Shown here: positions 21,279-36,350 of the stretch, piece after piece
Layout: every line of letters begins with the position of its first letter
How positions within the stretch are numbered: position 1 is the first letter of the stretch
IMG/VR virus record: IMGVR_UViG_3300023174_000009
Span: 1-44,129 of that record
DNA length: 44,129 bases
From: a virus
Reading direction: 5' to 3' (one strand)
Notes under the pieces: generated by a model
Databases searched by the model: none
What the model was told of the DNA's origin: nothing
The model's input: the letters and a program-made list of their open reading frames with translations, nothing else
Translations under genes and position numbers: made by a program

Positions 21279-22408
21279 CAACCCACAAGCAAGCGGTAGT
21301 CATCTGCCGTGAGACCGACGCGCTTGAGCACGTAGTCGTCCGAGGGGTGGACGCTCAGCTCGTTGAAGCTCTTGATCAGGCCCATACTCAACATGGCTTT
21401 CTGCCGACCGAACGGGTGGTCGGTGATCGTGCTGCTGTTCCAGACGGCGTCGCGGTCGACGTGGTCGTAGTCGGCACCTGGCCTGACGTAGTTCTCGATC
21501 CACCGGATGAAGTCGCAGCAGACGTCCTCAGCGTCGTACGGGTGTGCATCGGTGTCCTGCTGGATCTTGGCCATCACCTCGTCAAGGAAGAGCTCCTTGG
21601 GACCACGTCCAAGCGGCCTGGCCAGGTAGCTGATGCACTCAATGGCGTTGGTGCCGTAGTAGAAGGGCGAGGTGCGGTCGACAGTGGCTGGGAAGAAGTC
21701 GGCGATGTCGGCGATGATCGCCGCGTACTGGAAACGGTAGGCACGCAAGTCGTTTCGGGCATTCCAGCGGAACATCCACTCGCCCACCTCGCGCAGCGGC
21801 TTGCTGCTGCCACTCGACAGGAACTCAGCGAGTTGATCAGCCAGTCTCGGTGCGTACTCGCATAGGAACATGTCACCACCGAGCGTGTACCTGTCATCCA
21901 CCTTTGGGAAGGCCGGGAACTGGTAGCCAACGCTGGTGAAGATCGAGCTGGATCGGTCACGGCACTTGATGGTCGTGATCATCTGGTTGAGGTCTCGGCA
22001 GTTAGTCAGTGCCGGCAGGATCGTGTTGTTGTAGCCGCTTGGCTTCTTGGCATAGTTGATACCGCTGCCGGTCACGCGGTGAACGATGAAAACGTAGAGC
22101 CAGTCGGCCAGGTCCCAGGTCTCACGGAAGCGATCGGCCTTTTCGCAGATGGGGCTTCGGACTGAGTGCAGTTTGGCAGAGTACGGGTGCTCGTTGCTGT
22201 TGCCGTACCAGAGGTCAAGCAGGATCTGGGTGAAGCCTGCGTACTTCCTGTTGACCACGTCATACAGCTCGACGTGCTGCATCAGCGGATCCTTGACCGT
22301 GCCGGCCATGTGGGGGATCGTGCCCAGGTTGCACTCGTCCTGCTGGGTCTTGGCCAGGCTGTAGTAGCGCAGGAACTCGTCGTAGTAGTGGGTGGTCTCG
22401 ATCTTCAC
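21278..22408 (-). CDS. Putative amino acid:DNA transferase / thymine pyrophosphorylase-like protein
   Basis: A 376-residue, mostly helical protein starting at GTG 22408, which overlaps the upstream TGA (GTGA). The most striking motif is H110-RVTGSGINYAKKPSGYNNT, followed by CRDLNQM, FTSVGYQFPAFP and YYGTNAIECISYLARPLGRG. I compare it with the HhH-glycosylase-related group that includes alpha-glutamyl/putrescinyl thymine pyrophosphorylases and amino acid:DNA transferases, which attach an amine or amino acid to a phosphorylated 5-hydroxymethyl base in phage DNA. The comparison is from memory of motifs. Context supports it: it is co-encoded with a hydroxymethylase-like enzyme and a PLP-like enzyme. 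Alternative: an unrelated phage helical protein. Confidence 0.58.
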   Translation of the reverse strand: MKIETTHYYDEFLRYYSLAKTQQDECNLGTIPHMAGTVKDPLMQHVELYDVVNRKYAGFTQILLDLWYGNSNEHPYSAKLHSVRSPICEKADRFRETWDLADWLYVFIVHRVTGSGINYAKKPSGYNNTILPALTNCRDLNQMITTIKCRDRSSSIFTSVGYQFPAFPKVDDRYTLGGDMFLCEYAPRLADQLAEFLSSGSSKPLREVGEWMFRWNARNDLRAYRFQYAAIIADIADFFPATVDRTSPFYYGTNAIECISYLARPLGRGPKELFLDEVMAKIQQDTDAHPYDAEDVCCDFIRWIENYVRPGADYDHVDRDAVWNSSTITDHPFGRQKAMLSMGLIKSFNELSVHPSDDYVLKRVGLTADDYRLLVG

Positions 22409-23331
22409 AGCCCACGCTCCAAGTCGCGCAGGTCTCCCCACTCACGCGCACTGTCGATGCTGTCCACGTCCACCTGGCCTAGCATGGACTCGATGGCCTG
22501 GTCGGAGCCGACGTTGATGAAGATGGCACCTGGTGAGCCCAGCTGAACGAAGTCGTCCCAGGCCTTGGCGTCGTAGGTGGCAGTGGTCGGGAACGAGGGC
22601 ATGAGGTGCTTCTTCACGCCGCTCAGGAATTGCATGGTTGCGCTCCGGATCTTGGCATTGCCAATCTCACCATCGTGCATGTTGCGCGCTACGGCGACGC
22701 CGTGGGCGCGAGCATGAGGCCAGCCGATCTGGAACGCACGGATCGCTGTGCCGGTGGACACAGCCATCCAGACCTCAGTCGGTTCGCCGTGATGCTGGGT
22801 GATGTGGTCGGCGAGGCGGACCAAGCCGGCTGTCACCTGAGGGACACCCGACAGGCCGAAGGGTAGGAACTTGGCACCGTGCTTCTCGGCCCACTGCTTG
22901 GCGTAGCCGTTCAGGACCGGCATCGCAGCGATCCTGATGAACCGCAGGTCGGCACCGTGCGCCTTCAGCACGGCTTGGTGGTTTGACACCCTGGCCGAGG
23001 CTGGGCAGAAGAAGACGCACCGCTTGCCGTACATCTTGGCCAAGGTCGCGATGGCGTCAGGGGCGTGGCCGACACGAGGAGCGCAGTAGACCAGCACGTC
23101 CTCCTTGGTCTCGGCGATCAGCTTCTCAGCGCCGTAGGCCTTGAGGCCTGCAGGGGCTAAGTCAGCTCGTAGGACCATCTTGTCCTCAAAAGCCTCGATG
23201 ACAGGCGGAGGCATCTTTGGTTCAAAGTCAGCACCGTACAGGTCGAGGTAGTGCTGCTTGGCCTGGCCAAGGTTCATGTTGGCTGGGATGTCCTTGTTGG
23301 TTCGGATGACGGTGATGCTGAAGATGGACAC
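22405..23331 (-). CDS. PLP-dependent enzyme-like protein (fold type II)
   Basis: The 308-residue product starts at GTG 23331 with GAGGA upstream. It reads like the tryptophan synthase beta / D-cysteine desulfhydrase fold. VLRADLAPAGLKAYGAEKL (residues 53-71) carries candidate PLP lysines K64 and K70. VYCAPRVGHAPDAIATLA and VFFCPASARVSNHQAVLKAHGA resemble the Ser/Asn-His and small-domain segments. VSTGTAIRAFQIGWPHA resembles the Gly/Ser loop that binds the PLP phosphate. In known thymine hypermodification a PLP enzyme decarboxylates the amino acid adduct (established for other phages). That this one does so is inference from its neighbours. The catalytic lysine cannot be assigned with certainty. 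Confidence 0.55.
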   Translation of the reverse strand: MSIFSITVIRTNKDIPANMNLGQAKQHYLDLYGADFEPKMPPPVIEAFEDKMVLRADLAPAGLKAYGAEKLIAETKEDVLVYCAPRVGHAPDAIATLAKMYGKRCVFFCPASARVSNHQAVLKAHGADLRFIRIAAMPVLNGYAKQWAEKHGAKFLPFGLSGVPQVTAGLVRLADHITQHHGEPTEVWMAVSTGTAIRAFQIGWPHARAHGVAVARNMHDGEIGNAKIRSATMQFLSGVKKHLMPSFPTTATYDAKAWDDFVQLGSPGAIFINVGSDQAIESMLGQVDVDSIDSAREWGDLRDLERGL

Positions 23332-23435
23332 AAGGTTTCCTCGTTGTAGGGTTTGAGGCCTCGGGCAGTGATCCATCCGAGGACGAAGCCGACGTCGATC
23401 AGGATCCAGCCGGCAATGAACTCCCAGAACCCCAT
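23274..23435 (-). CDS. 53-residue single-span membrane protein nested between genes
   Basis: ATG 23435 has a strong GGAGG ribosome site six bases upstream. The product begins MGFWEFIAGWILIDVGFVLG, one hydrophobic span, followed by WITARGLKPYNEETLC and a Ser/Pro/Thr-rich tail. It overlaps the end of the SGNH-like gene by 37 bases and the start of the PLP-like gene by 58 bases, and so fills the only gap in the cassette. The good ribosome site and clean membrane segment support it. No family recognised. Confidence 0.5.
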   Translation of the reverse strand: MGFWEFIAGWILIDVGFVLGWITARGLKPYNEETLCPSSASPSSEPTRTSQPT

Positions 23436-24394
23436 CCATTCCTCCGGTAGTGGGTCGGTGAGATGTGGACGGACGAGCCCAGCTCCATGCAGGTCTTTGC
23501 GTAGAGCTGACCGTCCATCGAGTACCAGTCGTCCGGTGGCTGAACGACGCTGATGTCGTGGCCCTGCAGACGTGTGATGAAGGTCTTGGTCCAGCCACGC
23601 CGCTGCTCGGCACTGCCTGCAAACGGAGTCTTCATGTAGAAGCCGGTCTGCGGGATGCGCCTGCCCTCGTGCTCGACTGGCACAGGGGCCGCGACCTCGA
23701 TGTCCATGATGAACTCGCCCATCAGAGACTTGACGTGATGGGCGTAGCGGTCGGCCAGGCGCAGGACGGCATCATCCGGATTCTCCTGACGGCCGATGTG
23801 GTGGCGGATGTCGATGGAACCCAGAACCATCAGGACGTGATCGTACTTGGAGCAGTCGATAGCCTGCAGCCGCATGTTGATGAAGTCATCCTCCATGGCC
23901 CCGTACAGCGTGCGGCCGTTGTGCCGTGAGATGGCGGCGCCGGCCGGTGCGTAGGCTGTCGCGTGGCTGTCACCGATGACCAGGGTCTTGGCTTCTAGGT
24001 CGGTCTGCAGGACGGTCTCGGCGCTTTCGAACCGTTCCTTCAGTACCGGCAGCAGCTTCGGCAGACGCGGATCACACGTGTCCTGGCCGACGCGCTTGGC
24101 CAACTGGTCGACGTAGTCCGGCATCGGACGGTCGAGGCTGAACAGCTGGCCTTCGTGCGTGACCAGCTGCAGCAGCCGCTCGTAGACCTCTGGACTCACG
24201 CCACCGAACAGGTTCAGCGCGCCACCGAAGTTGACGCCGTGGTCAAGGTACAGGTCGTCGTAACCGTGGATGTCCGTCTCCTTGTCGGCCACCTCGGCCT
24301 TGAGGGACTCGGCCCAGTGCAAGGCCCAGCCACGGACGTGCGACTTCGAGCTCACCGGCACCGGTGAGAAGGGATTGAAGATCAGCTTGGTCAT
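23399..24394 (-). CDS. SGNH-hydrolase-like protein of the modification cassette
   Basis: A 331-residue protein starting at ATG 24394, overlapping the synthase-like gene by 4 bases (ATGA). The core from about residue 134 shows SGNH blocks: LVIGDSHATAY with the nucleophile serine, VLMVLGSIDIRHHIG in the place of the GxND block, and SSVHISPTHYRR near the end with the His. The first 110 residues (with YDDLYLDHGVNFGGALNLFGG) are not a known part of that fold. SGNH proteins cut or transfer acyl and similar groups. In this setting it could finish, trim or acylate a base side chain, or act on a donor. Substrate is unknown. Confidence 0.6.
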   Translation of the reverse strand: MTKLIFNPFSPVPVSSKSHVRGWALHWAESLKAEVADKETDIHGYDDLYLDHGVNFGGALNLFGGVSPEVYERLLQLVTHEGQLFSLDRPMPDYVDQLAKRVGQDTCDPRLPKLLPVLKERFESAETVLQTDLEAKTLVIGDSHATAYAPAGAAISRHNGRTLYGAMEDDFINMRLQAIDCSKYDHVLMVLGSIDIRHHIGRQENPDDAVLRLADRYAHHVKSLMGEFIMDIEVAAPVPVEHEGRRIPQTGFYMKTPFAGSAEQRRGWTKTFITRLQGHDISVVQPPDDWYSMDGQLYAKTCMELGSSVHISPTHYRRNGWGSGSSLPAGS

Positions 24395-25050
24395 GGTGTG
24401 ACGAGGTGGAAGTGGCGTGGGTAGACGTGAAGCGAAGCGGCGTTCCAGTAGATCTTGCCAAGCTTGAGACCGTGGAACGACATGGCGTCACGAGCCATTT
24501 TGTGGATGTAAGCGTGCCACGCGTAGTCGTTCTTGTAGCCGAACACTGCGTCGTTGCTGCGCATGTAGACGAGGTAGTCCAACTTGCCATTGCGGATCAA
24601 AAGCTGGACTGCGTAAGTGCACATGAAGTCCTTCATGCCGCCTGCCGTTGCGTCATCGTGCATGGTCGGCCGGATGTAGATCATCGTGGCCTGACGGCTT
24701 GCCGGGTTTTTGGTCAGGGTTCTGATGGCCGAGTCGAACTGGTAGTAGTTCTCATCGCTCCAAATACACCAGCCGTAGTTGCTGTTGATCTGGCCATCCA
24801 CACTGGCGATGCTCTTCCAGATCTCAGGTATTGGTGGGGTAATGTCGTTGACGTTCAGCGACATCGACTCGTACCAATCCAACTCGCGATCGATGTAGTC
24901 ATGATTGGGTGTTCCGAAGATCGCGGGCTCGTCCGCCACAAAGCAGGCGTTGACGATCTCGATGTTGCCATCTTCAGCAAAGTCACCGGACAGCAGCAGG
25001 TGGCGAAACGCCTCGCGGACCATCGCCACGTTGGTCGATGCCGGCATCAT
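24391..25050 (-). CDS. Thymidylate-synthase-like pyrimidine hydroxymethylase
   Basis: A 219-residue member of the thymidylate synthase / dCMP-dUMP hydroxymethylase superfamily. Seen: NSNYGWCIWSDENYYQF (about 89-105), the SRQATMIYIRP arginine region, catalytic Cys144 in KDFMCTYAVQL, MRSNDAVFGYKNDYAW (163-178), and LHVYPRHF near the end. Cys144 lies in DFMCT instead of the PPCH of standard synthases, and the segment after RSND is that of phage hydroxymethylases. In the place of the Asn that selects dUMP in thymidylate synthase there is Asp175, a feature of dCMP hydroxymethylase, so both 5-hmdUMP and 5-hmdCMP are possible products. It overlaps the MazG-DUF5664 gene by 4 bases. Confidence 0.78.
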   Translation of the reverse strand: MMPASTNVAMVREAFRHLLLSGDFAEDGNIEIVNACFVADEPAIFGTPNHDYIDRELDWYESMSLNVNDITPPIPEIWKSIASVDGQINSNYGWCIWSDENYYQFDSAIRTLTKNPASRQATMIYIRPTMHDDATAGGMKDFMCTYAVQLLIRNGKLDYLVYMRSNDAVFGYKNDYAWHAYIHKMARDAMSFHGLKLGKIYWNAASLHVYPRHFHLVTP

Positions 25051-25874
25051 GCTGCTTCGCCCTTGCGGTTGAAGCGGTCGTCCTTGTCAGGGTTGTTGGC
25101 AACGTGCTCCATCAGGATCATGAGCTGGGTGCCGGCATGGGCAAGGTGGTGCTTGCCGCTCTCCGGGTCCACGTCCTGGCCGTCCCAGAACATGAACAGG
25201 TGGCGGAGGATGCTGCCGTAGGTGCGGGACCAAGCCACCGTCTCGCCGCTGCGGTAGCTATTGGCAAAGTACTTCAGTGCGCCGTAGCCGAACACGTCGG
25301 CGATCTGCAGCATGGGGTCGACGGGCAGCAGGTCGACACGGACCTTGTTGCTGTCGAACTTCGGAGCCTGGCCAGCGATGATCGGCTCACGGTCAGCCGT
25401 GACGAGCTGAGGACCAGGCACGGCAAGTGGTTTGGCCTTTGGCTCCTTACCGTCAACACGGTCACAGGCCTGATTGATGATGTGGGCCAGTTCGGTCTCT
25501 GGACCGACCCAACCAGCAGGCTTGACCAAGTCGCGCTTGAAGCCGCCGCGCTTGTTGCCGTTCTGGCCGACCTCCTTGGCCATGTTCGCCAGCATCACGG
25601 CTTCGAAGCCTGGCAACAGTGGCAAGCCGTGGCGCTCCAGGGTGCCGACAGCAAACACGATCAGGTCGAGCAGCGAGTCGTACAGGGTGACGAGGTCCTG
25701 CGCCTCCTCGTACTCCTGGATCTCCTCGCGCATAGCGGCAATGCGGAAGCGCTTCTCCTCCTCGTTGAGGACCGTTGGGCCATCTGTGTTCTGCAGGCCG
25801 AACTTCATGTGCATGGCCAGCACAAGCTGCATCAGGACAGACTCGTTCTGCGTTTTGGGTGGGATGTTGGGCAT
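25047..25874 (-). CDS. MazG-like and DUF5664 (dATP/dGTP diphosphohydrolase) fusion
   Basis: The 275-residue protein joins two nucleotide pyrophosphohydrolase domains. Residues about 10-95 are MazG-like, with FRIAAMREEIQEYEEA and DSLLDLIVFAVGTLERHGL forming the metal-binding E-x-x-E and D pattern. Residues about 170-270 match DUF5664: KFDSNKVRVDLLP, FGYGALKYFANSY, ILRHLFMFWDGQDVDPESG and HHLAHAGTQLMILM. DUF5664 is annotated as a dATP/dGTP diphosphohydrolase; related MazZ works in diaminopurine phages (established). It may remove normal dNTPs or supply monophosphates for the synthase-like enzyme next to it. ATG 25874 has no strong ribosome site; the leader contains inverted repeats. Confidence 0.75.
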   Translation of the reverse strand: MPNIPPKTQNESVLMQLVLAMHMKFGLQNTDGPTVLNEEEKRFRIAAMREEIQEYEEAQDLVTLYDSLLDLIVFAVGTLERHGLPLLPGFEAVMLANMAKEVGQNGNKRGGFKRDLVKPAGWVGPETELAHIINQACDRVDGKEPKAKPLAVPGPQLVTADREPIIAGQAPKFDSNKVRVDLLPVDPMLQIADVFGYGALKYFANSYRSGETVAWSRTYGSILRHLFMFWDGQDVDPESGKHHLAHAGTQLMILMEHVANNPDKDDRFNRKGEAA

Positions 25875-25972
25875 GGTGATTGGGTGTTGAGGTAGACATG
25901 GCGGGAGGGCGCCAAAGCGCAGGTCGTTTAACCAGGAGCCGCCGGCATCCTGGCCCTCCCAAAACCTGGTGA

Positions 25973-26530
25973 TCAGTCCAGCAGACTGTCGCTCGGACGG
26001 CTGCCGGCCACGTCGGCGAAATCGGTCGCGGCGTCGGTGCGGCCCGAGTACGCCTCGTCGTCCTTGACCTTCATGACGTTGTCGAGCGCGATGGAAACGC
26101 CTTTGCCACCGGTCGGATGGTCCCAGGCGTAGGCGCGGATCGAGGCGCGGTACCATGCACCGCTGTAGATCTCGTCCTCGGACATGATCGGGCTGAGGTC
26201 GGCGTCCACGATGCCGGGCTTGTTCTTGCTGCTGGCCTGGATGGTGAACTTGCCCTTGAACTCAGGCCGCTCGTTGCCGTCGTTGTCCGGCTCGTCGCCG
26301 TCCTTGATCGGGCGCTTCAGCTTGGGCGGGATCTTGCCGAACTTCTCCTTGGCCGTCTCCTCGATGAGGGCCTCGACCTTCTTCCAGAACGAGTCGTTCT
26401 TCGGGATCGGAATGGTGATCTGAAATCGAGGCTCGGCCTGCTTCTCGCCGGGCTGCGCTTTGATGGCGTGCGGCTTGACGAGGTGGACAAACGAACCGCG
26501 GAACTCAGGGGTAATCAGCTTGGAAGCCAT
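25973..26530 (-). CDS. DUF2815 single-stranded DNA-binding-like protein
   Basis: A 185-residue protein starting MASKLITPEFRGSFVHLVKP. This start, and the later GAWYRASIRAYAWDHPTGGKGVSIALDNVMKVKDDE, are the recognisable signature of DUF2815, whose members are encoded beside DUF2800 nucleases and phage polymerases and have an OB-like fold. It is the best candidate for the phage single-strand-binding protein. The acidic tail (TDFADVAGSRPSDSLLD) resembles SSB tails that recruit partners. The DUF2800 gene lies two genes upstream. Confidence 0.82.
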   Translation of the reverse strand: MASKLITPEFRGSFVHLVKPHAIKAQPGEKQAEPRFQITIPIPKNDSFWKKVEALIEETAKEKFGKIPPKLKRPIKDGDEPDNDGNERPEFKGKFTIQASSKNKPGIVDADLSPIMSEDEIYSGAWYRASIRAYAWDHPTGGKGVSIALDNVMKVKDDEAYSGRTDAATDFADVAGSRPSDSLLD

Positions 26531-32823: not shown

Positions 32824-33020
32824 TCTGACTCCTTGAGTAGGTCGGTGAGGCCTTTCGCAGGCCTGAAGCGACATGACTTGTATGACTATTCCTGCCCTGA
32901 CTGATGTTGGTGACGTCCTTGGAAAAGTAGTAGGAAGATTATACACACTTGTGTGAGCATCGATGTAGTGTTCGATGCATGTTTTCGTGTATGATGCGAC
33001 TCCCACCAACGAGTCGATCG
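32824..33020. promoter_or_regulatory. Central divergent switch region
   Basis: The gap between the leftward and rightward arms. On the - strand a perfect TATAAT lies at 32943-32938, directly next to the palindrome CACAC (32944-32948) TT GTGTG (32951-32955). On the + strand TATGAT at about 32991-32996 lies 25 bases before the Cro-like ATG. A degenerate operator half-site, ACTTGTATGACTATTC at 32876-32891, lies in the leftward leader. The set-up resembles an early lysis/lysogeny control region. Confidence 0.6.
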
Positions 33021-33257
33021 ATGCCCGTCAACAACCTATACCAAGGTCAGTGTCTAGAGGCGCTGACCAAGTTGCTAGAGTACTTCAACGACAACCAAGC
33101 CGAGTTGGCCCGCTACACAGGTGCTTCCTACAGCACCGTCGTGGCCTGGAAGAAGCGCGGCTACATCGGCAAGTCCTGGGCTGCCAAATTGGACGAGGAC
33201 CAGCGGGTGCCGTTCACCAAGGAACAGCTGCGGCCTGACGTGAAGGTGTGGCAATGA
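33021..33257 (+). CDS. Cro/YdaS-like regulator 2
   Basis: A 78-residue HTH protein: LTKLLEYFNDNQAELARYTG, then SYSTVVAWKKRGYIGKSWAA, ending PFTKEQLRPDVKVW. The WKK-x-G-x-IGK part and the final LRPD motif are shared with the protein at 30014, so the two are paralogues. YdaS/Cro-like proteins turn prophage promoters off or on. As first gene of the rightward arm next to the switch region it is the best Cro candidate. Its TGA overlaps the primase-helicase ATG. Confidence 0.85.
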   Translation: MPVNNLYQGQCLEALTKLLEYFNDNQAELARYTGASYSTVVAWKKRGYIGKSWAAKLDEDQRVPFTKEQLRPDVKVWQ

Positions 33258-35659
33258 GCCGGCCCACCAACCTCCCCTTCAAGCCTGCTGCCGTTCCTGC
33301 TGAGCTCAAGGCCCTAGACCGCTGGGTCCTGTGGCGCTTCGCCAAGAAGCGTGGCAAGGCCTTCGCCAAGATTCCATTCCAGGCCAGTGGCACGGTGGTG
33401 GTCACGACTGATTCGTCCACATGGTCAGCCTATGACTTGGCCTTCGACGCCTACGTGGACGGTGGCTTTGATGGCATGGGTGTGGTGTTCAACGGCGACG
33501 GTCTGGTTGGCATCGACCTGGACGACTGTGTGGTCGATGGGGTGCTGAGCGCCACTGCTACAGAGCTGCTGGACAGGATCGTCTGCTACGCTGAGTTCTC
33601 GCCGTCCGGTACCGGCATCAAGGTGTTCACCAGGTCTGTGCTCGGATCCTCGTACGTGGACTCGTCCAAAGGGGTCGAGGTCTACAACAAGGACCGCTAT
33701 TTCACGGTCACTGGGCATGTTCTGAGCGGCCACGAGCTGGTACCCGATGAGCCGCAGGATCTGGTGTGGTTCATCGAGAAGCACTTCGGTGTTCAGGACA
33801 CTGGTGGGGACTCGGACGCCCTCGCCTTCTTCAAGCCGCCGCTCGATGGCTGGGACCTTGAGAAGGTGGTCGAGGAAGTGCTGGCCGTGCTGCCGGCTGA
33901 CTGCGGCTACAGCGAGTGGGTCATGGTCGGCCAGGCTCTCTATCACCAGTTTCATGGTGACCCTCAGGCCATGGACGCATGGGACGAGTGGTCAGCGTCC
34001 TCGGCTGAAAAGTATCAGAATGGTCTGTGCCAGTCCAAGTGGGACAGCTTCTCCAGCGAGCGCGTCAAAGGCCGTGGCCCTGTCACTCTGGCTTCGCTGC
34101 TGAAGTTGGCAGGAGACATCAGGGCAGAGGAGCGCCGTGCCGAGTTCGATCGGTGGAAGTCGACCATCGAGGATGCGGCCGATGCCAACGAGCTGTTGAA
34201 GACGGTGTGCCCTGGTCTGGCTAAGGATGTGCTGCTGACCAAGGTCGACCGAGACGTGCTGGCACAGGTGCTCAAGGCACGGTTCAAGGCGCTTGGCTAC
34301 CCGGTCATGCTGCCGGACATCAAGAAGATGATCAAGCCGAAGGCTGGTGGCGAGATGCCGGCCTGGCTGGAGGACTGGGTCTACGTCACGCACGAGGACA
34401 AGTTCTTCAACGTGCTGACTAAGCGGAAGGTCACCGTGATGGGCTTCAATGCCCTGTACAACCGCGAGGTCGGTGGCTTCGACACGGAGACCAAAGCGAC
34501 CGTGCTGGCGCTGGACCTGTGGAAGGTGCCGACGCCTGACAAGATTATCTACCTGCCGTCGGCTGGCGACATGTTCACTCTGAATGGCCAGCCGTGCGTC
34601 AACCTCTACGACCCGAACTCGCCGCCTGACGTGCCAGCCGAGTACTCGGTCGGGGACCGCAAGGCCATCGAGCTAGTGCTGGACCATCTTGGGAGGATCC
34701 TCACAGAGCAAGGCGCCGTGGAGATGATGCTGTCCTGGATGGCCTTCAACGTGCAGCGCCCAGGGGTCAAGATCAGGTGGGCACCTCTGCTCAAGGGCAT
34801 CGAGGGTGATGGCAAGACGCTGATCGGTAAGGTGCTGTCTGCGGCCATGGGCATGGTCAACGTCGGCATCGTGTCACCTGCAGTGTTGGGGACTCCGTAC
34901 ACAGCTTGGGCGGAAGGTCGCTGCGTCAACGTGATGGAGGAGATCCGGATTGTCGGGCATAATCGGTACGATGTGCTGAATACCATCAAGCCCTATATCA
35001 CCAACGACACGATCACGGTCCATCCGAAGGGCGTGAACGAATATGTGGCACCGAACACGGTGAACTACATTGCCTTCACCAACCACGAGGATGCACTGCC
35101 GCTCGATAATACCGACCGTCGCTGGTGGGTGTTATTCTCGCCATTCCTCGATCGCGAGACTTTGGCCAAGGAGATGGGCCCTGTCTACTTCAACAGGCTG
35201 CACGCCGCCATCGAGCAGCATGCAGGCGGGTTGAGGCGCTGGCTGTTGGAGTACGAGCTGGCTGCAGGCTTCGAGCCGAACGGCACGGCACCAGGCTCTG
35301 TGGCTAAGTCTCAGATGATCGCCTTGAGCACCAACGACGGCGATGAGTCTGTCCGGCAGCTGATCGAAGATGGTGCCCCTGGAGTGTCAGCCGTGGTGGT
35401 GTCGGGCCCACATCTCAAGGCTGCGCTTGAGTTCGAGGAGGAGACGGATGCCCCGTATGGCAGGAAGCTGTCGCTCTTGATGGCGAAGTTGGGCTTCACT
35501 CAACTCGCGCGCAAAGTGCGGTGGCAGGGCAAGACCTGTCGGGTCTGGATGCGTGTTCCGAATGGGATCAAGTTCGGGTCGGACGAGGCCTACGAGCTCG
35601 CCAAGGCCGAGCTGGACAAGACCCTTGGCCAAGCCGCTAGCGACTCGATCCTGGACTAA
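33254..35659 (+). CDS. Primase-polymerase / D5-like SF3 helicase
   Basis: The 801-residue replication protein starts at ATG 33254 (ATGA overlap); the in-frame GTG six bases earlier is less likely. The first 190 residues are an archaeo-eukaryotic primase-type domain, with VGIDLDDCVV (about 90), FSPSGTGIKVF and VYNKDRYFTVTG. A linker region (about 200-400) contains a DUF3987-like primase C part. The helicase domain has Walker A GIEGDGKTLIGK (about 514), Walker B CVNVMEEIRI (about 558), sensor YIAFTNHEDAL (about 606) and the Arg finger NTDRRWWVL (about 619). Together with the polymerase it forms the core replisome. The candidate origin lies directly after its stop. Confidence 0.9.
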   Translation: MSRPTNLPFKPAAVPAELKALDRWVLWRFAKKRGKAFAKIPFQASGTVVVTTDSSTWSAYDLAFDAYVDGGFDGMGVVFNGDGLVGIDLDDCVVDGVLSATATELLDRIVCYAEFSPSGTGIKVFTRSVLGSSYVDSSKGVEVYNKDRYFTVTGHVLSGHELVPDEPQDLVWFIEKHFGVQDTGGDSDALAFFKPPLDGWDLEKVVEEVLAVLPADCGYSEWVMVGQALYHQFHGDPQAMDAWDEWSASSAEKYQNGLCQSKWDSFSSERVKGRGPVTLASLLKLAGDIRAEERRAEFDRWKSTIEDAADANELLKTVCPGLAKDVLLTKVDRDVLAQVLKARFKALGYPVMLPDIKKMIKPKAGGEMPAWLEDWVYVTHEDKFFNVLTKRKVTVMGFNALYNREVGGFDTETKATVLALDLWKVPTPDKIIYLPSAGDMFTLNGQPCVNLYDPNSPPDVPAEYSVGDRKAIELVLDHLGRILTEQGAVEMMLSWMAFNVQRPGVKIRWAPLLKGIEGDGKTLIGKVLSAAMGMVNVGIVSPAVLGTPYTAWAEGRCVNVMEEIRIVGHNRYDVLNTIKPYITNDTITVHPKGVNEYVAPNTVNYIAFTNHEDALPLDNTDRRWWVLFSPFLDRETLAKEMGPVYFNRLHAAIEQHAGGLRRWLLEYELAAGFEPNGTAPGSVAKSQMIALSTNDGDESVRQLIEDGAPGVSAVVVSGPHLKAALEFEEETDAPYGRKLSLLMAKLGFTQLARKVRWQGKTCRVWMRVPNGIKFGSDEAYELAKAELDKTLGQAASDSILD

Positions 35660-35981
35660 AGCAATCGGAACTGAATCGGAACACTAATCGGAACACTTCT
35701 AAGTTGTTGATCTTGTTGATCATTCCTATTGATTTGTTCCGATTCCGATTTGTTGATGGTCCAATGTAAGGAAAAATAATTTTCACAGAAGTGTTCCATA
35801 TGGTGAAAGGAGACTCAAAAAATATTCCATATGGCCCAGAAGGAGTTGAAATCGGAATCGGAACATTTGGGTCGTACGACCGCGATCCTGGACGTCAGCC
35901 TGGAAGCAGCTGGCAGAACAAGGCGCACAAGTAGACTGGGCATGAGCCCCCGAGACGGCGCGAGTTCTACAATCGCGGCTC
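35660..35981. other. AT-rich iteron region, candidate replication origin
   Basis: A 322-bp non-coding stretch, unusually AT-rich for this genome. AATCGGAAC occurs at 35663, 35674 and 35686 (spacing 11 and 12), then tandem TTGTTGATC at 35704 and 35713. A 17-bp perfect inverted repeat, 35735-35751 with 35849-35865, is built of two iteron units per arm. TTCCATATGG recurs at 35794 and 35825, 31 bases apart. An A/T tract lies between. Repeats in register with the helix turn next to the helicase gene are typical of phage origins (inference). Operator use is the alternative. Confidence 0.65.
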
Positions 35982-36350
35982 ATGCGAAGCGAGAGCACTG
36001 AACAAATCATCCTGATCGCCCGGATCAGGCACTTCCACGAAGGACTGATCGTGTACTCGGTGCCGAACGGCGGCAAGCGCGATCCCAAGGAGGCAGCGAG
36101 GCTCAAGCGTGAAGGCGTGCTTGCCGGAGTGCCGGATGTGGTTCTGGCCGCACCACGCGGCCGTTGGCATGGGCTGTACATCGAGATGAAGCGTGAGACA
36201 GGGGGTAGGCTTTCGGACGCGCAGACGCGCATCCAAGCGGCTTTGGTAGCTGAAGGGTATCGGGTTTTGACCTGCCACGGCGTCGAAGAAGCTTACAAGG
36301 CCTTTCTGGACTACATCGGCCAAGGTCCGTTTACAGCCCAAAGGAGCTGA
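35982..36350 (+). CDS. VRR-NUC family nuclease
   Basis: A 122-residue single-domain nuclease with the VRR-NUC pattern: SEQ IILIARIRHF start helix, VYSVPNGGKRDPKEAARLKREG, GVPDVVLAAPRGRWHGLYIEMKRETGG with catalytic Asp, Glu and Lys, and LSDAQTRIQAALVAEGYRVL. Such small enzymes resolve or cut branched DNA in phage replication. It follows the iteron region and precedes a gpZ-like gene by two bases. Confidence 0.9.
   Translation: MRSESTEQIILIARIRHFHEGLIVYSVPNGGKRDPKEAARLKREGVLAGVPDVVLAAPRGRWHGLYIEMKRETGGRLSDAQTRIQAALVAEGYRVLTCHGVEEAYKAFLDYIGQGPFTAQRS

Follow-up and report, generated by a model that had tools for sequence, protein, structure and literature searches.

A candidate replication origin made of PrimPol-covarying iterons directly downstream of the PrimPol-helicase gene in a tailed phage genome

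The kind of replication origin considered here is already known from satellites and plasmids. In SaPIs, the C-terminal domain of Rep recognises iterons that lie directly downstream of its own gene (PMC7581432), and PICI origins are found immediately 3′ of rep, where two iteron sets flank an A/T-rich region and from where a cloned origin drove plasmid maintenance (PMC6092414). The P4 alpha protein likewise binds its origin repeats through a winged helix and, as a single protein, also unwinds and primes the DNA (PMC4234260). For NrS-1 PrimPol, a specific 8-nt template motif was proposed as the origin, and the two copies of this motif in the NrS-1 genome were read as single-strand template sites (PMC7102993, PMC8718748). 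Here, a viral DNA stretch of 44,129 nucleotides (IMG/VR record IMGVR_UViG_3300023174_000009, hereafter the window) was analysed, and comparison with related phages indicated that its segment 35660-35870 is very probably the phage replication origin, with the PrimPol-helicase encoded just upstream as the initiator.

As in the SaPI and PICI systems, the putative origin of the window adjoins the 3′ end of the initiator gene and has iteron sets on either side of an A/T-rich region (PMC6092414), and the initiator would combine a helicase and a C-terminal origin-reading domain (PMC7581432) with an AEP-type primase (phmmer matches to 7ola). The window differs in three oriented iteron groups, a doubled inverted iteron and an IHF-like site, and in a prim/pol, a PriCT-2 and a helicase part joined in one protein. 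Moreover, the gene set is not that of a SaPI or PICI satellite but that of a tailed phage, as terminase, portal, head protease and tail genes are encoded. The presence of winged helix, helicase and primase in one polypeptide is shared with P4 alpha; however, the P4 alpha primase is of the Toprim type, whereas the N-terminus of the window protein matches AEP prim/pol structures, and the P4-family primase model TIGR01613 (NCBIfam) scored only 17.1 bits against a cut-off of 108.7. In ORF904 of plasmid pRN1, an AEP prim/pol, an SF3 helicase and a C-terminal winged helix are likewise followed directly by the origin (PMC4234260), but the pRN1 origin depends on a large stem-loop and lacks iterons, whereas on the window side it is the iterons, and not the stem, that are conserved. 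NrS-1 PrimPol has prim/pol and helicase parts related to those of the window protein, with the two reported single-strand motifs of 8 nt standing against an iteron block in the window.

The window PrimPol-helicase is composed of an AEP prim/pol, a PriCT-2, an SF3-type helicase (DUF5906) and a C-terminal winged helix, and its phmmer search matched 7ola and the NrS-1 PrimPol chains. An AlphaFold2 model of the whole protein was poor (mean pLDDT 63), but the model of its last 170 aa gave a winged helix, three helices followed by a beta wing, with a mean pLDDT of 83 and high values over most of the domain. The structural matches of this domain were mostly winged-helix/HTH proteins with low Z, and as such matches are generic, only a general winged-helix fold is proposed for the predicted C-terminus. 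No solved relative of the domain was found by sequence profile search and no NCBIfam model covering it was found; P4 alpha and SaPI Rep were absent among the fold matches listed, which does not exclude them. Residues are numbered from the start codon, so that K756, T763 and R765 below correspond to 759, 766 and 768 when counted from the stop-to-stop frame, which begins three residues upstream.

Among the other genes of the window, a regulator-like ORF with weak repressor PHROG matches (32949-33257, + strand) runs in the same direction as the PrimPol gene, and its homologues in relatives lie on the strand opposite PrimPol. A 369-aa protein (25047-26156, − strand) carries a nucleotide pyrophosphohydrolase-like part at about residues 97-232 (PHROG), while its residues 260-365 match families named dATP/dGTP pyrophosphohydrolase and endolysin, a possible fusion. 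Residues 145-372 of the product of 22405-23622 (− strand) match a PHROG named threonine dehydratase, an unusual phage cargo.

The initial annotation, made from the window's letters alone, had proposed a candidate origin from three spaced AATCGGAAC units, tandem TTGTTGATC units and a perfect 17-bp inverted repeat of doubled units around an A/T-rich tract next to the primase-helicase stop, and all of these elements were recovered as described (Table 1). The iterons begin 4 nt past the PrimPol stop. Across the 44 kb, exact copies of AATCGGAAC were located only at 35663, 35674, 35686 and 35856 on the plus strand and at 35736-35744 on the minus strand. Each arm of the inverted repeat is a doubled iteron, and 97 nt separate the arms. 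The first TTGTTGATC forms part of the IHF-like site, the second is an insertion relative to most relatives, and a further copy with one mismatch was found at 35750. The view that this is the most repeat-dense stretch also held: among 1464 windows of 211 nt, an exact 8-mer occurred more than three times only in those touching the block, where it reached 6, and the commonest 7-mer 3′ of the PrimPol stop had 7 copies, compared with at most 4 in dinucleotide shuffles (0 of 200 reached 7). The A/T content of the roughly 211-nt block is 62.1% vs 37.2% for the genome, unmatched by the other 211-nt windows sampled. The spacer additionally contains a second short repeat, AAGTGTTCCATATGG / AAATATTCCATATGG, at 35789-35803 and 35820-35834, and a sigma-70-like promoter match at 35753-35780 (+ strand; 9 of 12 positions, with an average of 0.1 in shuffles), from which the VRR-NUC gene could be transcribed or an origin transcriptionally activated.

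Table 1. Positions of the repeat block and of the adjoining genes in the window
Feature	Position	Strand	Remarks
PrimPol-helicase gene, 803 aa; proposed initiator	33248..35659	+	PHROG primase families; Pfam PriCT_2, DUF5906; stop codon ends at 35659
Predicted C-terminal winged helix, coding part, aa 697-770	35336..35557	+	AlphaFold2 of last 170 aa; covariation
Left iteron group, three AATCGGAAC at 35663, 35674 and 35686	35663..35694	+	Spacing 11 and 12; layout common to relatives
IHF-like site GATCAACAACTTA	35700..35712	-	12/13 match to consensus WATCAANNNNTTR; directly after left iterons, as in relatives
Tandem TTGTTGATC	35704-35712 and 35713-35721	+	
Doubled iteron, reversed; left arm of 17-bp inverted repeat	35735..35751	-	Inverted pair kept in relatives
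A/T-rich spacer, candidate unwinding element	35752..35848	.	62.9% A/T
Right doubled iteron; right arm of 17-bp inverted repeat	35849..35865	+	Right group tandem in relatives
VRR-NUC nuclease gene	35982..36350	+	Pfam VRR_NUC; conserved neighbour in closest relatives only; outside the proposed origin

The GC skew behaved differently from what the initial annotation had expected of an origin. No turning point was seen at the block, as the cumulative skew rises almost throughout the genome, and after detrending its extremes fell at 21.4 and 6.4 kb. A skew minimum elsewhere had been named as an argument against the proposal, and formally this is what was observed, yet skew locates no origin here.

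With the window PrimPol as a single query sequence, no viral contigs were found, and a scan with the downstream VRR-NUC protein yielded 74, in about 38 of which a PrimPol about 50-54% identical to that of the window sits directly upstream of VRR-NUC. The gap between the two genes measures 218-418 nt, and within it the layout is constant while the repeat word differs from contig to contig, including CTCGAACC, CTCGATCC, TTGTAACC and ATGGATCC; some 40 related viral contigs retain the architecture, each with its own word. First come direct iterons spaced by about 12 nt and then TTAAGTTGTTGATTT, whose other strand fits the IHF consensus; a doubled reversed iteron with a spacing of about 7 nt and an A/T-rich spacer come next, and a tandem group of two or three iterons precedes the following gene. 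Within the close clade these positions barely shift, as exemplified by L047 with forward iterons at 21, 33 and 45, the IHF-like site at 56, reverse iterons at 90 and 97, and forward iterons at 196, 203 and 210. The consensus WATCAANNNNTTR is perfect at the equivalent place in many relatives and missing in some, e.g. L023 and L024.

Scans with a PrimPol alignment extended these observations to more distant phages, in which the same kind of block is built from other words. A similar block occurs in isolated Casjensviridae such as Chi, BcepNazgul and AH2, and iteron blocks 3′ of the primase were also recorded in the isolates SS2019XI, PCA1, Psp6, Silvanus, SAP012, phiAxp-2, JS26, Suzuki and others. 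The primase and the iterons of Chi are separated by a small HTH gene. No iteron block was recognised 3′ of PrimPol in, for example, L164, L165, L167, L174, L175, Carli and R22L. The gene after the block varies by phage (VRR-NUC, a late activator, an endolysin or an unknown gene), and because it changes while the block stays beside PrimPol, the block belongs with PrimPol. The PrimPol relatives on alphaproteobacterial genome contigs (L254-L258, L261) differ in their C-terminus, WS[VI]RNHxxW, and are followed by iteron-like blocks, GTAGACAGGTAGACA / TTGTCTAC, which are likely to be origins of this type in prophages or islands.

The iteron letters were compared with all columns of the PrimPol alignment, with no region chosen beforehand; the words were assigned by hand from the repeat scan, as 8 letters in a common register. 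The first set held 30 non-redundant loci, and 24 added loci gave a pooled set of 54 over 692 columns. In the 30 loci, the T763 column ranked first for letters 5-6 with a normalised mutual information of 0.685, compared with 0.355 for the next column and a shuffle maximum of 0.445, and the R765 column ranked first for letters 3-4 and for letter 3; these top values were reached by 0 of 300 shuffles. T763 was still first after the set was thinned to 60% or 45% identity. In the 54 loci, T763 again ranked first for letters 5-6 and R765 for letters 3-4 and 3, with K756 first for letter 4, and 0 of 200 shuffles reached these signals. All three residues are located in the wing of the predicted C-terminal winged helix.

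In the pooled set, 34 loci combine R at 765 with G at letter 3, and 12 combine T or Q with C; for residue 763 and letters 5-6, A or T accompanies AA, P mostly TA, M AT and Y GA. One group of related loci has near-constant wings, WDGKxHRVW and close variants, in which x is A or T where the iterons read TAACC, P for GGACC, S for TGACC and M for TATGG; an exception is L304, with WNGTAHRVW and TTACC. A rule set before the last scans (A, T or L predicts AA; P, TA; M, AT; K, AC) could be applied to 17 new loci, of which 13 fit, one fits partly (L333, with mixed words) and three miss (L304, L309 and L313). L234 and L241, two earlier loci that had not been used, fit as well, and SAP012 and L252 deviate. 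Because many of the fits belong to the common AA class, the rule amounts to a strong, context-dependent tendency and not a fixed table. The wing covariation points, indirectly, to a C-terminal domain that reads the iterons, as in SaPI and PICI initiators.

The same data bear on other explanations of the repeats. They could be operators through which PrimPol or a phage repressor regulates the late genes or PrimPol transcription, as the promoter match inside the spacer might suggest, but no exact iteron was located elsewhere in the genome, three groups of fixed orientation plus an IHF-like site exceed what operators need, and the wing covariation points to PrimPol and not to a repressor. We therefore regard operators as quite unlikely, although PrimPol autoregulation could accompany origin use.

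In lambda cosB, arranged R3-I1-R2-R1, terminase binds the iterons and IHF bends the DNA between them, and the iterons and IHF-like site of the window resemble this layout. A packaging site of that type, bound by the small terminase subunit, would also suit the small terminase gene 1.3 kb downstream of the block and the block of BcepNazgul and Chi, which is no more than about 0.6 kb away from the cos ends. By position alone the block could serve packaging in those two phages, but the repeat word follows PrimPol. A packaging site is quite unlikely all the same, given that the iteron letters covary with PrimPol wing residues, that downstream neighbours change while the block stays beside PrimPol, that the window's terminase was not found in the examined stretches around the block of close PrimPol relatives, and that in Chi more than 10 kb separates the terminase genes from the left cos end (PMC4342425). 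A search of the window for a Nazgul-like cos overhang gave only chance matches, and the TerL relatives did not carry the PrimPol block in the stretch examined.

That the 17-bp inverted repeat is itself the functional element, by analogy with the 100-nt stem-loop origin 3′ of the PrimPol-SF3-winged-helix gene of pRN1 (PMC4234260), is hardly credible and was dropped, as the stem is not conserved among relatives: the window stretch does fold as a single strand (z −2.9), but the perfect inverted repeat measures 18, 16 and 15 bp in L047, L038 and L034 and is absent or at most 10 bp in L028, L033, L042, L142, L141, L160 and L004, which keep the iteron layout. The repeat is a by-product of iteron orientation rather than a conserved hairpin.

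The reading of the block as an origin bound by the adjacent PrimPol-helicase was also consistent with natural exchanges between relatives. L147 and L149 encode nearly identical PrimPols; of the 7 residues specific to L147 against three relatives, 4 lie in the wing, and L147 has GGTACCAG iterons where L149 has GGTAACAG. The L149 block is a mosaic over a stretch about 183-270 nt past the PrimPol stop, with GGTAACAG in its left and inverted iterons and far right copies that are still GGTACCAG, as in L147; these far right copies may be dispensable, or the exchange may be recent. In a second pair, L047 and L042 are about 90% identical upstream and 93-97% identical in the first several hundred nt downstream, while a segment of about 400 nt in L047, which takes in the final ~70 codons and the iterons, matches L050 and not L042. 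Thus, in the L042/L047 pair the wing-coding end and the iterons moved together. As wing and iterons adjoin on the DNA, such joint exchange may reflect hitchhiking and is by itself no proof of selection. Covariation across distant phages of low overall identity should be less open to hitchhiking, and would be the stronger evidence of the two.

Taken together, the conserved architecture, the residue-to-base covariation, the joint exchange of wing and iterons and the SaPI/PICI-like placement support, at the level of sequence, an origin bound by the adjacent primase-helicase. The comparative evidence thereby upholds and sharpens the candidate origin of the initial annotation, with origin activity itself inferred. 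The block is best read as a set of PrimPol-helicase binding sites that would work like the SaPI/PICI and P4 alpha origins. In such a mechanism, the C-terminal winged helix of PrimPol would bind the AATCGGAAC iterons, with the wing reading individual bases, and a bend introduced by an IHF-type host protein, located between the left direct group and the inverted doubled iteron, would bring the iteron groups together. Once assembled, the SF3 helicase part would open the A/T-rich DNA that lies between these groups or next to them, and the first primer for the phage DNA polymerase would come from the prim/pol part.

To our knowledge, the origins of most tailed phages are unmapped, and no description of this origin in Casjensviridae was found in the literature searched, which covered few subscription journals. 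A large set of complete tailed phages with the inverted doubled iteron and IHF-like layout and with residue-level covariation is apparently undescribed, and complete phages appear to share this PrimPol-iteron arrangement. The arrangement offers a sequence-based pointer to the origin in Casjensviridae and in related phages carrying this PrimPol, and the residue-to-base code can be tested by swapping a few wing residues. Tentatively, wing and iterons might constitute an exchangeable specificity cassette with a readable code in a very large phage group, in which the origin word may diversify quickly because a distinct word would prevent cross-initiation, capture by satellites or competition from co-infecting phages.
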